Source: Candidatus Gaiellasilicea maunaloa | GTDB taxonomy: Bacteria; Actinomycetota; Thermoleophilia; Gaiellales; Gaiellaceae | Assembly: GCA_024330215.1 (NCBI GenBank) | Contig: JANDLU010000005.1 | Location: 1 to 64,000, forward strand | Reading direction: 5' to 3' | DNA length: 64,000 nt | Shown: piece after piece, positions 6,018-62,239 of the stretch | Position numbering within the stretch: position 1 is the stretch's first letter | How the letters are laid out: each line of letters begins with the position of its first letter | The notes under the pieces: generated by a model | Seen by the model: only the letters and a program-made list of their open reading frames with translations | Database searches by the model: none | What the model was told of the DNA's origin: nothing | Position numbers and translations under genes: made by a program

Positions 6018-6616
6018 ACGAGCCCGCCCGCAGGGAGGCGCCGCGCGCGCCGGACGTCAGGGTTGGCTCGACGACGAACGCGCTGCGCCCGATCTCGGCG
6101 GCCGAGCGTCCGCTCGGCGCAGGCGCCCGCCAGTGGCTTAGCCTCGGCGCGATCGCGATCGCGGCCGTTGGAGCCGACCAGCTCACGAAGCAGATCGTGA
6201 CGCGGACGCTCGCGCTCGGAGAGGAGGTGCATGTCGCCGGCCCGCTCTCGATCCACCACGTCCAGAACTCGGGGATCGCCTTCGGGCTCTTCTCGCAGGC
6301 CACCTCGCTCGTGATCGTCCTCACGGCGATCGCCGTCGCCTGGATGGTCGTCTTCTTCGCGCGCGCCGGCCGCCGACACCCGATCCTTCCGGTCGCGCTT
6401 GGCTTCGTGCTCGGCGGGAGCATCGCCAACCTGCTCGACCGCGTGCGTCTCGGTCACGTGACCGACTTCCTCGACGTGCGCTACTGGCCCGCCTTCAACC
6501 TCGCCGACACGTTCATCGTGGTCGGAGTCGCGATCCTGTTCGCGGCGCTCGCCGGGGCAGACCGGCAGTCGCAGAGACCGCGCCCCCTTGGTGACTCTCC
6601 GCTTTCGCGCTCCTGA
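6014..6616 (+). CDS. lspA: Lipoprotein signal peptidase (signal peptidase II)
   Basis: LspA cleaves the signal peptide of prolipoproteins in the membrane. The 200-residue product has four predicted membrane helices and both catalytic aspartate motifs: GGSIANLLDRVRLGHVTDFL with its downstream Asp, and FNLADTFIVVG. HVQNSGIAFGLF is another family motif. The TTG at 6014 overlaps the preceding stop (TTGA) and gives an N-terminal tail of about 35 residues before the first helix. An internal start is possible. The gene overlaps rluD by about 29 bases, the common lspA-rluD pairing. A candidate substrate is the BMP lipoprotein at 57460-58542. Confidence 0.92.
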   Translation: MNEPARREAPRAPDVRVGSTTNALRPISAAERPLGAGARQWLSLGAIAIAAVGADQLTKQIVTRTLALGEEVHVAGPLSIHHVQNSGIAFGLFSQATSLVIVLTAIAVAWMVVFFARAGRRHPILPVALGFVLGGSIANLLDRVRLGHVTDFLDVRYWPAFNLADTFIVVGVAILFAALAGADRQSQRPRPLGDSPLSRS

Positions 6617-7502
6617 GCCCGGTCGCCTCGATCGTGCGCTCGCGGCGAGGTCCGAGGTCGGCTCCCGCGCCCTCGCCGAGCGCCTGATCGCGACCGGCGA
6701 CGTCCTCGTCGACGGGCAGGTGCGCTCGAAGAGCCATCGGCTGGAGGGCGGGGAGGACGTCGTCGCGGAGCTGCCGGCGGAGGCGGGACCGCTCGTGCCC
6801 GAGGAGATGGGACTTCGCGTCGCCTTCGAGGACGCGCATCTGCTCGTCGTCGACAAGCCGGCGGGGGTCGTCGTCCACCCGGGCACCGGTCGTCCTCGCA
6901 AGGGGGGCGATCGAGAGGGAGGCACGCTCGTCCACGGCCTGCTCGCGCTCGACGCGGCCGGCGGGGACGACGACGACCGGCCCGGGATCGTCCACCGGCT
7001 GGACCGCCACACCTCCGGCCTGCTCGTCGTCGCCCGCTCTGACGAGGCACACGCGAGACTGGAGGAGCTGATCCGGCGGCGCGAGGTCGAGCGGCGCTAT
7101 CTCGCGCTCGTCAGAGGCAGGCCGCGTTCCCGGACGGGCAGGATCGAGGCGGCGATCGGCCGCGACCGCCAGGATCGCACCCGCCACTCGCTCGACACGC
7201 CGACCCCGCGAAACGCCGTCACGCATTTCGAGCTCGTCGAGGCGCTACGCGACCACACCCTGCTCGAGGTCACGCTCGAGACCGGCCGCACGCACCAGAT
7301 CCGCGTCCACCTCGAGGCGATCGAGCTCCGGATCGTGGGCGATCCCGTCTACGGGATTCCCGGCGAGCTCGGGCTCGAGCGCCAGTTCCTCCATGCCGCC
7401 CGGCTCGCGTTCGCGCATCCGTTCACCGGCGAGCGGATCGAGACCGAGTCGCCGCTTCCGGGCGACCTCGCCGCCGCGCTCGAGCGAGCCCGAGCCTTGT
7501 AA
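6588..7502 (+). CDS. rluD: RluA/RluD family 23S rRNA pseudouridine synthase
   Basis: This 304-residue RluA-type pseudouridine synthase has an N-terminal S4 RNA-binding domain (roughly residues 14-70, with LIATGDVLVDGQVRSKSHRL) and a catalytic domain with HRLDRHTSGLLVVARSD carrying the catalytic Asp. LEVTLETGRTHQIRVHLE and GDPVYG are further motifs. The RluD-type homologues modify helix 69 of 23S rRNA; exact target sites cannot be read here. The start is TTG 6588 or GTG 6591. The last codons and the TAA stop lie inside the first unit of a 16-bp tandem repeat. Confidence 0.92.
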   Translation: MVTLRFRAPEPGRLDRALAARSEVGSRALAERLIATGDVLVDGQVRSKSHRLEGGEDVVAELPAEAGPLVPEEMGLRVAFEDAHLLVVDKPAGVVVHPGTGRPRKGGDREGGTLVHGLLALDAAGGDDDDRPGIVHRLDRHTSGLLVVARSDEAHARLEELIRRREVERRYLALVRGRPRSRTGRIEAAIGRDRQDRTRHSLDTPTPRNAVTHFELVEALRDHTLLEVTLETGRTHQIRVHLEAIELRIVGDPVYGIPGELGLERQFLHAARLAFAHPFTGERIETESPLPGDLAAALERARAL

Positions 7503-7595
7503 CTACCAGGCCTTGTAACAGCCGAGCCTTGTAACTACCAGGCCTTGTAACAGCCGGGCCTTGTAGCAGCCAGCCTTGTAACAGACTGTTACTTG
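7495..7595. repeat. 16-bp tandem repeat (CCTTGTAAC family) between rluD and rpsB
   Basis: Six copies of CCTTGTARC begin at 7495, 7511, 7527, 7543, 7559 and 7574, a near-constant 16-base period. The tails alternate (TACCAGG, AGCCGAG, TACCAGG, AGCCGGG), giving a 32-base higher-order unit. The last copy ends in the palindrome GTAACAGACTGTTAC. A solitary identical 24-base copy of that last unit lies at 47008-47031. The first unit contains the rluD stop codon. Confidence 0.85.
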
Positions 7596-7604
7596 CCGTC
7601 CGCT

Positions 7605-7609
7605 ACACT
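7605..7609 (+). promoter_or_regulatory. Possible -10 (TACAC/TACACT) for rpsB
   Basis: TACACT begins at 7604 in CGCTACACTGG just after the tandem repeat and is about 120 bases before rpsB, leaving a long leader. It resembles the TANNNT elements elsewhere. Ribosomal protein S2 leaders often hold autoregulatory structure, but I could not recognise a defined one. Confidence 0.35.
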
Positions 7610-7731
7610 GGCGTCGTCCAGTTCCCTCCCCGGTGTGGACCGAACGAGTGGGGGTGCCGCGTTCTGAGCGCGGTTCCGCTCGCACCGCGCCGGCAGCACG
7701 CCACAACCAATCCGAGAAAGGGGCCACGTCC

Positions 7732-8747
7732 ATGCCAGTCGTGTCCATGCGCGAGCTGCTCGAGGCCGGAGTCCACTTCGGTCATCAGACCCGCCGCTGG
7801 AACCCGAAGATGAAGCGCTTCATCTTCACCGAGCGGGGCGGGATCTACATCATCGACCTGCAGCAGACCTCCGAGCTCCTCCAGGAGGCCTACGACTTCG
7901 CCCGCAACATCGCAAGTCGCGGCGGGAGCATCCTCTTCGTCGGCACGAAGAAGCAGGCCCAGGACTCGATCGAGCAGGAGGCTGCGCGCGTCGGGATGCC
8001 GTACGTATCGAACCGCTGGCTAGGCGGCCTGCTCACGAACTGGAAGACGATCACCGACCGGATCGCGCACCTGCACGAGCTCAGGCGCCTGAAGACGGAG
8101 GGACAGCTCGAGCTTCTGCCGGCGAAGGAGCGGATCACGATGCTCGCTGAGCTCGAGAAGCTCGAGTCGAACCTCGGCGGCGTCGCCGATCTGCGCCGCC
8201 AGCCCGACGCGGTCTTCATCGTCGACCTGAAGAAGGAGCAGCTCGCAGTGCGCGAGGCGCGCCGGCTCGGGCTGCCGATCATCGCGCTCGTCGACACGAA
8301 CTGCGATCCCGACGAGGCCGACTACATCATTCCCGGCAACGACGACGCGATCCGCTCCTGCAGCCTGATCGTGCGCGCGATCGCCGAGGGCATTGCCGCC
8401 GGCAAGACCCGCGTCACGGAGGCCGAGCTGAGCGCCCGCAACGGCAGCGCGGCGGCGCCGGAGGAGACAGACGGCGCGGCGACGACCGAAGCCGCCGCCC
8501 CCGCGGCCGACGAGACGCCGGCCGAGCACGAGCCGCTGAGTCAGGGCGAGACAGTGGTCGAGCCGGAGGATCTGAGCGAGATCACGGGTCAGGCGGCGGC
8601 TGACGAGCCGGCCGTGATCGCGACCGAGGAACCCGCAACGAGCGACGAGCCCACGAACCCGGAAGAATCCTCGACTGAAGGGCCAACGAATGCCGAAGGG
8701 CCAACGAACGCCGAAGGGCCAACGAACACCGAAGGGACTGAGCAACA

Positions 8748-8751
<4 letters not shown>
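7732..8751 (+). CDS. rpsB: 30S ribosomal protein S2 with acidic repeat-containing C-terminal tail
   Basis: The first about 225 residues are a standard S2: [53 protein letters not shown] and [18 protein letters not shown] are all present. The protein is 339 residues, about 90-100 longer than typical S2, because of an Ala/Glu/Thr-rich acidic tail. The tail ends in three near-perfect 18-bp direct repeats (8677-8730) encoding GPTNAE-type hexapeptides. The ATG at 7732 has Shine-Dalgarno GAGAAAGGGG. The stop overlaps the tsf start (GTGA). The tail is probably disordered and its function is unknown. Confidence 0.96.
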
Positions 8752-45648: not shown

Positions 45649-46968
45649 TCATGCTGCGACCGCCGTGCGCTGCGCGCCGCGAAGCGTCGTCGAGCTCGAA
45701 GCCTCGATCTCGACATCCACGAGCTCGCCCGGCTCGGCGGTCCCGGCGAAGTTGACGGTCGTGTTGCGACGTGTCCGCCCGCGGAGGACGCTCGCGTCAG
45801 TCCGGCTCGCTCCCTCGACGAGCACCTCCTCGATTCGGCCGATCCGCTCCGCGTTCCGCTCGGCGGCGATCCGCTGGACGACGTCGACGAGGCGCTCCAG
45901 GCGGTCGTGCTTGACCTCGTCTGCGACCTGCTCGGCCATCGTCGCGGCCTCGGTGCCCTGGCGCGGCGAGTAGATGAACGTATAGGCGCTGTCGAAGCGG
46001 ACTTCCTCGACGAGCGCGAGCGTCTGCATGAAATCGGCCTCGGTCTCACCCGGGAAGCCGACGATCACGTCGGTGCCGAGCGCGAGATCCGGGATCGCGT
46101 CGCGCAACCGGGCAACGAGACGCAGGTAGCGCTCGGCATCGTAGGTGCGCCGCATCGCCTTCAGAATCCGCGACGAGCCCGACTGGACGGGCAGGTGGAC
46201 GTGCTCGCAGACAGCCGCGCAATCGGCCATCGCGGTGACCACAGGCTCGCGAAAGTCCTTGGGGTGCGGACTCGTGAAACGGATCCGCTCGATTCCTTCG
46301 ACTGCGTCGCAGGCGCGCAGCAGCTCACCGAACTCCGTGTCGAGGTTCGACCGCAGGTCGCGGCCCCAGGAGTTGACGTTCTGGCCGAGCAAGGTGATCT
46401 CGCGGACGCCGTCGGCGGCGAGCCGCGTCACCTCGGCGAGGATCTCACCCGGCCGGCGGCTCTGCTCGCGCCCGCGGACCGCGGGAACGATGCAGTAGGC
46501 GCACTTCGAGTTGCATCCCATCGAGACCTGAACCCAGGCGCTGAAGCGACGCTCGCGATGCATCGGGAGGTCGCCGGCGAAGTGCTCGTGCGTGCCGAAG
46601 CGCCCTCGCGGAGCCTCTCCCCCGGCTCCGATCCACTCGCCGAGATGCGGGATCGAGCCCGGGCCGAAGGCGACATCGACGTACGGGTAGAGCTCGAAGA
46701 GCCGCTCCTGCTGGGCCTCGGCGTAGCAGCCGCCGACCGCGACGACGAGCTCGGGGTTCTGTCGCTTGCGAGCCCCGGCGTCCCCGAGGTAGGCGGCGAG
46801 CTTCGTGTCCGGCTTCTCCCGGATCGTGCAGGTGTTGAAGACGAGCACGTCGGCACCCTCCTGCGAGGGCGCCTCGCCGAGCCCGAGCGACTCGAGCATC
46901 CCCTTGATCCGCTCCGAATCGTGCGCGTTCATCTGGCAGCCGAACGTGGTCACGTGGTAGCGCCGCAT
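45649..46968 (-). CDS. miaB: tRNA-2-methylthio-N6-dimethylallyladenosine synthase
   Basis: MiaB is a radical-SAM methylthiotransferase acting on i6A37 of tRNA. The 439-residue protein has the N-terminal UPF0004 domain with three cluster cysteines (TTFGCQMNAHDSERI, FNTCTIREKPDTK, AVGGCYAEAQQE), the radical SAM motif in MGCNSKCAYCIVPAVRGRE, and a C-terminal TRAM domain (ERIGRIEEVLVEGAS). TAGACT lies eight bases before the ATG on the minus strand. It acts with MiaA encoded downstream. Confidence 0.96.
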   Translation of the reverse strand: MRRYHVTTFGCQMNAHDSERIKGMLESLGLGEAPSQEGADVLVFNTCTIREKPDTKLAAYLGDAGARKRQNPELVVAVGGCYAEAQQERLFELYPYVDVAFGPGSIPHLGEWIGAGGEAPRGRFGTHEHFAGDLPMHRERRFSAWVQVSMGCNSKCAYCIVPAVRGREQSRRPGEILAEVTRLAADGVREITLLGQNVNSWGRDLRSNLDTEFGELLRACDAVEGIERIRFTSPHPKDFREPVVTAMADCAAVCEHVHLPVQSGSSRILKAMRRTYDAERYLRLVARLRDAIPDLALGTDVIVGFPGETEADFMQTLALVEEVRFDSAYTFIYSPRQGTEAATMAEQVADEVKHDRLERLVDVVQRIAAERNAERIGRIEEVLVEGASRTDASVLRGRTRRNTTVNFAGTAEPGELVDVEIEASSSTTLRGAQRTAVAA

Positions 46969-47007: not shown

Positions 47008-47031
47008 AGCCTTGTAACAGACTGTTACTTG
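47008..47031. repeat. Solitary 24-bp copy of the CCTTGTAAC repeat at the HIT gene 3' end
   Basis: The 24 bases starting AGCCTTGTAAC and ending TGTTACTTG are identical to 7572-7595, the last unit of the rluD-rpsB array. They contain the palindrome GTAACAGACTGTTAC. The HIT stop codon lies within it. Confidence 0.8.
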
Positions 47032-47468
47032 GTCGCGAGCGAGGGCGCAAGCTCGGCGGCGAAGGATGCGACCTCCGCTGGTCCGCCTCGTCGTGCTCCC
47101 TCCCATTCGTCCACCTCGTACCAGCGCACGTGGTCGGGCGTTCCCGGCCAGCGTGGCACGACGTGTACATGCAGGTGCGGCACGCCTGTTCCGATCCGCG
47201 ACGAGAAGACGTGGTCTGCCCCGGCGGCGCGGAGGGCGCGCGCAAGCGTCGCTGTCGCGACGCCGATCCCGGCGGCCTCCGCATCGGTGAGGTCCTCGAA
47301 CCCTGGAGCATGGCGCCGGGTGACGAGCAGCATGTGACCGAGGTAGGGACGGGGATACTGCTCGCTTGGCGGTACGTGGAACGCGAGTACATGCTCCTCG
47401 TCGATCAGGCAGCCGCCGGGAAGCTCGACCTCCCCCGCTACCTCGCGGCAAACGAGGCAGTCGTTCAC
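47025..47468 (-). CDS. HIT family protein
   Basis: The 147-residue histidine-triad protein has VPHLHVHVVPRW, the His-x-His-x-His catalytic motif, and an N-terminal DCLVCREVAGEVELPGG with a CxxC pair typical of bacterial HIT hydrolases acting on AMP-linked or dinucleotide substrates. GTG 47468 overlaps the rny stop (GTGA). Its own stop falls in the 24-bp repeat. A second CxC-type metal site is not evident. Confidence 0.9.
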   Translation of the reverse strand: MNDCLVCREVAGEVELPGGCLIDEEHVLAFHVPPSEQYPRPYLGHMLLVTRRHAPGFEDLTDAEAAGIGVATATLARALRAAGADHVFSSRIGTGVPHLHVHVVPRWPGTPDHVRWYEVDEWEGARRGGPAEVASFAAELAPSLATK

Positions 47469-62083: not shown

Positions 62084-62239
62084 GGACGTGTCCGCAGCGG
62101 ACAAGTCCGGGGTCAAAGCCCGGACACGTCCTACGGCGACGTGTCGGGAGCGGACACGTCCAGGGGCTGGCCCCGGACACGTCCGGCAAAGACTTGGCGC
62201 AAGCGGACACGTCCAGGGGCTGGCCCTGGACAGGTGTCC
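62084..62239. repeat. GGACACGTCC composite repeat array upstream of ftsK and the MFS gene
   Basis: Three units, each made of GGAC(AC/GT)GTCC-like words flanking a GGGG...CCCC-type hairpin, occur at 62084-62131, 62152-62184 and 62205-62239. The last two are offset by 53 bases. The hairpin GGGGTCAAAGCCC at 62109 is identical to the one at 3790. The array fills most of the 250-base divergent gap. Confidence 0.8.

Follow-up and report, generated by a model that had tools for sequence, protein, structure and literature searches.

At the junction between an rluD-like gene and rpsB, the genome of Candidatus Gaiellasilicea maunaloa carries a short tandem array, which an earlier note had read either as an expanding repeat or as an operator with several sites serving the ribosomal protein operon. 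Which of the two applies, and what the array is made of, is the question addressed here, starting from the 64,000-nt stretch of DNA that contains the array (hereafter, the window).

The array (positions 7494-7584, + strand) contains six CCTTGTARC units. The unit CCTTGTAAC begins at 7495, 7511, 7527, 7543 and 7574, and the variant CCTTGTAGC at 7559, with unit-to-unit distances of 16, 16, 16, 16 and 15 bp. The six units claimed earlier are thus present, but their 16-base period is not strict, as the final step is 15. TRF describes the same region either as 5.8 copies with a period of 16 (7494-7584) or as 3.0 copies with a period of 32 and a 92% match (7490-7584). The array consists of six left half-elements in tandem, with a 32-bp higher order. 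Seven occurrences of CCTTGTARC were observed in the window versus 0.05 expected from a shuffled window, the seventh lying at 47010. As anticipated in the earlier note, the array is closed by a palindrome, GTAACAGACTGTTAC at 7578-7592, which forms the 15-bp core of a 23-bp dispersed palindrome (7574-7596), and the first unit provides a stop codon, TAA at 7500-7502, for the upstream gene (6588-7502, + strand). The product of this gene is an RluA-family (RluD-like) pseudouridine synthase (NCBIfam TIGR00005, 5.4e-72, above the cut-off), which scores under the cut-off of the RluD-specific model. Downstream lies rpsB (7732-8751, + strand; 30S ribosomal protein S2; TIGR01011, 4.2e-95). Of the promoter presumed to separate the array from this gene, a -10-like hexamer, TACACT (7604-7609, + strand), can be picked out by eye, but no promoter was recovered when 7300-7800 was scanned with a simple sigma-70 consensus.

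The rpsB gene has features of its own. Its leader (7633-7731 in the window, compared with leaders L277-L305) is conserved and contains a hairpin, with two-sided changes at 7 of the 12 predicted pairs (17 of 29 leaders aligned), and Rfam gave nothing in the window beyond one chance-level match. The C-terminal tail (8677-8736) includes an in-frame 18-bp repeat encoding EGPTNA-type repeats.

Beyond what the earlier note had described, the last array unit together with the palindrome recurs at 47010-47032 and throughout the genome. The consensus of 224 unique exact-core sites, SCWWGTAACAGWCTGTTACWWGS, spans 23 letters and consists of a perfect 7+W+7 palindromic core flanked by SCWW and WWGS. Within the window, this GTAACAG-type palindrome is the sole perfect 7-W-7 palindrome occurring more than once. 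Its second copy includes TTA at 47025-47027, where a 147-aa gene on the minus strand (47025-47468; weak gene-caller score), presumably HIT-like, has its stop codon; a 439-aa gene downstream of it (45649-46968, minus strand; start MRRYHVTTFGCQMN) we take to be MiaB-like. The whole genome (G000) carries 14 exact copies of GTAACAGWCTGTTAC, and the loci fetched from it contain 18 sites, counting close variants; 7 of these are in genes and 11 are intergenic. A stop codon falls within the core or at most 6 nt away in all intergenic sites but one, that is, in 10, and the eleventh is the array itself, whose first unit carries the stop. The genes with internal sites encode HypF, QueA, DNA polymerase I and Mfd (NCBIfam matches above the cut-off), an error-prone DNA polymerase (cut by the stretch end) and an ATP-dependent helicase (both below it), and a seventh protein with no NCBIfam match. 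Gene calls came from our own codon-usage script rather than a standard gene finder, and nine proteins were checked against families. Among the matches listed from the literature, none was a paper on the GTAACAG palindrome. Elsewhere in the window (62085-62232), a 53-bp tandem array rich in GGACACGTCC lies between divergent genes, and a literature search on this repeat yielded nothing relevant.

The comparison of genomes separates the two readings of the array. At the same junction, a second genome of the genus (G033, the one other compared) has a single palindrome and no array, so that copy number, for which a comparison between strains had been proposed, is six in one genome and one in the other. 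Because of this difference, we consider the array a local expansion of the left half-element, which supports the expanding-repeat alternative. Among the loci collected up to that point, at least three TTGTARC within 60 bp occurred at this locus alone. Replication slippage following the rluD stop codon may have multiplied the left half of the 23-bp palindrome to six copies; the array would then be a recent, genome-specific tandem expansion, placed next to the rpsB promoter by happenstance and datable within one genus. A multi-site operator controlling the rpsB operon would agree with the presence of the palindrome at this junction in both genomes of the genus and with its location about where a -35 element would be expected for TACACT (judged by hand), and repeated half-sites could increase occupancy. 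Nevertheless, the site is confined to the window's own locus among the 29 of 30 family rpsB loci that were readable: the 28 others, which all belong to different genera from the window, lack it in the 430 bp that precede the N-terminal motif of rpsB, the best match there having at least 4 mismatches, and these 28 include two site-bearing genomes (G014 and G026). Moreover, the same palindrome stands at unrelated genes, and divergent regions hold just 11 of 252 sites. An operator role of the array at rpsB is therefore unlikely, and we regard control of the ribosomal protein operon by it as highly improbable.

With respect to its taxonomic range, the palindrome is lineage-limited. Among 67 order genomes with a completeness of 85% or more, 20 contain the exact core, and all 20 belong to the family of the window, a family of soil bacteria taken as Gaiellaceae. 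Across the phylum, the exact core occurs in 1 of 296 genomes (completeness of 90% or more), the window's own; a reversed-pattern control gave 0 in every genome among those listed. The 11-bp inner core has a match in 52 of 90 order genomes, with most of the low counts near the control level, and is patchy within genera, as exemplified by 23 copies in G048 versus 0-2 in six other genomes of genus g6. In the named collection, the 80 stretches listed of 112 come from Thermoleophilia or Actinobacteria/Actinomycetota/Actinomycetes assemblies, and the matches listed also include contigs of one bin labelled Burkholderiales, which is taken to be misbinned. In G044, a genome of the window's family, 32 sites were present at no more than 2 mismatches versus 1 in the control, and in most of these variants C replaces the T that is second in a half, on one side or on both. 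Another genome, G018, is devoid of the GTAACAG palindrome and contains two other 7-W-7 palindromes, four copies each in a 400-kb sample, all intergenic by our own gene calls. One of them, GTGGCTC-W-GAGCCAC, is present as two pairs, both intergenic, with distances of 76 and 96 bp (L353, L362). In genus g15 (L105-L144), many palindromes share tails, such as GACACGGCC about 7 bp past the core or GATATC beside it (both by eye). Sites shared in position between genera amount to 42 pairs with neighbours 45-82% identical, a count that is inflated by doublets and has no null model.

The palindrome lies mostly at the 3′ ends of genes and often provides the stop codon. Of 252 unique sites, 85 are convergent, 90 tandem and 11 divergent, 49 are in genes and 17 are undetermined, while the share of intergenic bases in three samples is 5-13% for convergent and 19-35% for divergent regions. 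For 76 of the 181 intergenic sites with a 3′ neighbour, the gene ends inside the core or no further than 4 nt from it. About a fifth of the sites are inside open genes, among them polA, error-prone dnaE, mfd, queA and hypF. No common regulator was obvious by eye among the genes starting near sites, and the 55 doublet spacings gave no helical phasing peak at 10.5 bp; among the periods tested, 12.4-12.6 bp scored highest (R 0.41). In G044, the one genome analysed for clustering in a chromosomal region, the 32 sites were not clustered (R 0.20, p ~0.29; ori and ter not placed), which leaves an origin or terminus site unsupported.

Convergent and tandem 3′ placement near stop codons is also what one would expect of a transcription terminator or an RNA hairpin at gene ends, an explanation that we nonetheless consider very unlikely. 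The loci of the collection were found by a pattern that fixes one arm (CAAG...WWG), and the other genome scan fixed TTG; for that reason, arm pairing was analysed again on 66 sites from loci picked without an arm condition (G050, G014 and G038, together with G000, for which the arm was free or allowed to mismatch). The arms were complementary in 17 of the 66 sites versus 21.2 expected, and mixed half-sites in the transcribed sense comprised 9 U.G and 10 C.A, without strand preference. With complementarity not exceeding chance and U.G about as frequent as C.A, nothing points to the maintenance of an RNA stem, and the palindrome arms do not behave as a hairpin. Nor do the sites combine complementary arms with the T run of an intrinsic terminator; a scan of 7300-7800 found no terminator-like site, a weak test given that shuffles gave 0.2. 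The occurrence of palindromes in the middle of core genes likewise argues against this explanation.

In one genus, the palindrome core is kept in orthologous loci while the flanks diverge. Between G050 and G014, 250 of 252 core bases are identical across 18 sites in 10 orthologous loci, 16 of the 18 sites being exact, as opposed to 673 of 1080 flanking bases (62%, gaps counted as differences). The core value is conditional, because the G014 loci were chosen for an exact core and the core may anchor the alignments; the comparison covers 10 of the 20 fetched G050 site loci, those with an aligned G014 site, and leaves out the pair L115/L130, unaligned at the site. In the genus of the window (g1), 4 of the 5 tested G033 sites have an orthologous site in G000 (two further G033 sites were left out), whereas the fifth corresponds in G000 to 1156 bp of unrelated sequence. 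Two of these four orthologous sites show a core change besides the centre, and per-base conservation of the core is not clearly above that of the flanks by eye.

The copies inside genes hardly alter protein length. For 17 of the 49 in-gene sites, all of them single, an ortholog lacking the site and sharing 55% identity or more was available (mostly one to three comparators each), and the protein with the site was longer by a median of 2 residues; 30 of the 49 were left out, having no usable comparator or being part of the one doublet. Whereas insertion would be expected to add 8 residues, the extra length was below 8 in 16 of these 17 single sites, the exception being +12 (L221). Control windows from the same alignments averaged -0.26 (sd 2.6), and two HypF values of -13 stem from poor alignment, with the gap in the other direction, and are uninformative. 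QueA is one example: one length of a 44-residue stretch is common to G000 and 11 family orthologs, and there is no gap relative to 18 site-less family orthologs. By comparison, the queA doublet L275 (same stretch as L074 of G026) adds 17-18 residues. The site is present in 3 of 21 family QueA sequences, the G023 copy having a core mismatch, and occupies the same position in three genera. Grouping these three as a single clade is rejected (p-AU 0.019), in a gene tree that is poorly resolved.

Taken together, we consider it somewhat probable that the array arose recently and locally, by tandem multiplication of one half, the left, of a REP-like dispersed Gaiellaceae palindrome, the duplex form of which is read by a predicted dimeric protein. 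The duplex palindrome would be recognized by a REP-type enzyme or by a DNA-binding protein acting as a dimer, and its copies may have spread as REP-like repeats. What counts against this explanation is that the near length-neutral in-gene copies are not explained by plain repeat transposition; the conditional nature of the G050/G014 core value and the per-base conservation in g1 also weaken it.

The same length data bear on two alternatives. An ordinary REP family moved by RAYT-type Y1 transposases, serving no host function and leaving the array as decay debris, is conceivable but doubtful. The placement is the same as that of published REPs, for which a REP survey describes gene-end placement, stop codons, repair-gene targets, units within the genes of DNA polymerase I and DnaE2, and dimers (PMC3733652); the patchiness within genera fits as well, and Y1 transposase genes occur in 25 of the 30 family genomes tested. 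Yet at the 50 Y1 loci examined (of 63 matches), no palindrome comes closer to the GTAACAG type than 3 mismatches, which speaks against a Y1-transposase-flanking repeat, and three genomes rich in inner cores (G048, G026 and G095, with 23, 17 and 13, respectively; assemblies 85-91% complete) gave no Y1 match. The small net length of in-gene sites and the better preservation of the core than of the flanks in one genus also speak against it. Another 7-W-7 palindrome, for example CGGTGTC-W-GACACCG or CGGGGTC-W-GACCCCG (L374-L396, L415, L416), was found near the Y1 gene in 17 of 30 loci, a count without a null that would favour a transposase-linked origin. Alternatively, a DNA-uptake-like sequence spread by biased recombination of incoming homologous DNA would leave lengths unchanged and put copies at matching positions in separate genera, in agreement with the in-gene copies, the shared queA position in three non-clade genera and possible dialects in other genera. 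Known uptake sequences are, however, far more numerous per genome, and no more than 50 inner cores occur in any of the 90 genomes, which makes this alternative quite unlikely.

We tentatively propose one further possibility, namely that in Gaiellaceae a 15-bp palindrome has been written into the chromosome in place, with little change in length, both where genes end and where core proteins have tolerant loops, and is held there by selection, recurring at queA in three genera and having dialects such as the GTGGCTC-type palindrome of G018. Bacterial palindromic repeats are usually read as inserted mobile debris; if this possibility were true, such repeats could be functional DNA sites evolving in place, with native residues replaced and the core kept.

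Rickettsia palindromic elements are described as inserts, unlike the present palindrome, which leaves length hardly changed. In both cases, palindromes are translated inside diverse proteins. The REP survey names these elements (PMC3733652). The matS site of MatP (PMC3330122) is likewise a short DNA site with tens of copies, but it differs in sequence and is restricted to the Ter domain, in contrast to the unclustered sites of G044. Doublets 54-143 bp apart in several genera resemble REPINs (PMC3116915), from which our palindrome differs in that singles are common. When the doublet spacers alone were folded with RNA parameters, they had as a group no hairpin tendency, with a mean z of -0.43 (n = 55) versus -0.31 for 50 controls (p 0.40), although single spacers reached -4.9 (L239) and -3.0 (L140). 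The closest parallel is with GTAG/CGTC REPs: in the REP survey (PMC3733652), these too are short palindromes at convergent and tandem gene 3′ ends that supply stop codons, sometimes lie inside DNA repair genes, occur as singles and dimers, often in 20-100 copies, and are patchy between species. In contrast to REPs, the palindrome carries no terminal GTAG or CGTC tag (224 sites), mostly gives TAA rather than TAG, has a perfect 7+W+7 core, hardly alters the length of genes, and does not sit beside Y1/RAYT genes in the 50 loci examined. It is a dispersed short palindrome of gene 3′ regions with some copies in genes, as REPs are, and because it shows neither the tag nor, in the loci compared, a neighbouring transposase gene or the extra length, we describe it as REP-like rather than as a member of that group.
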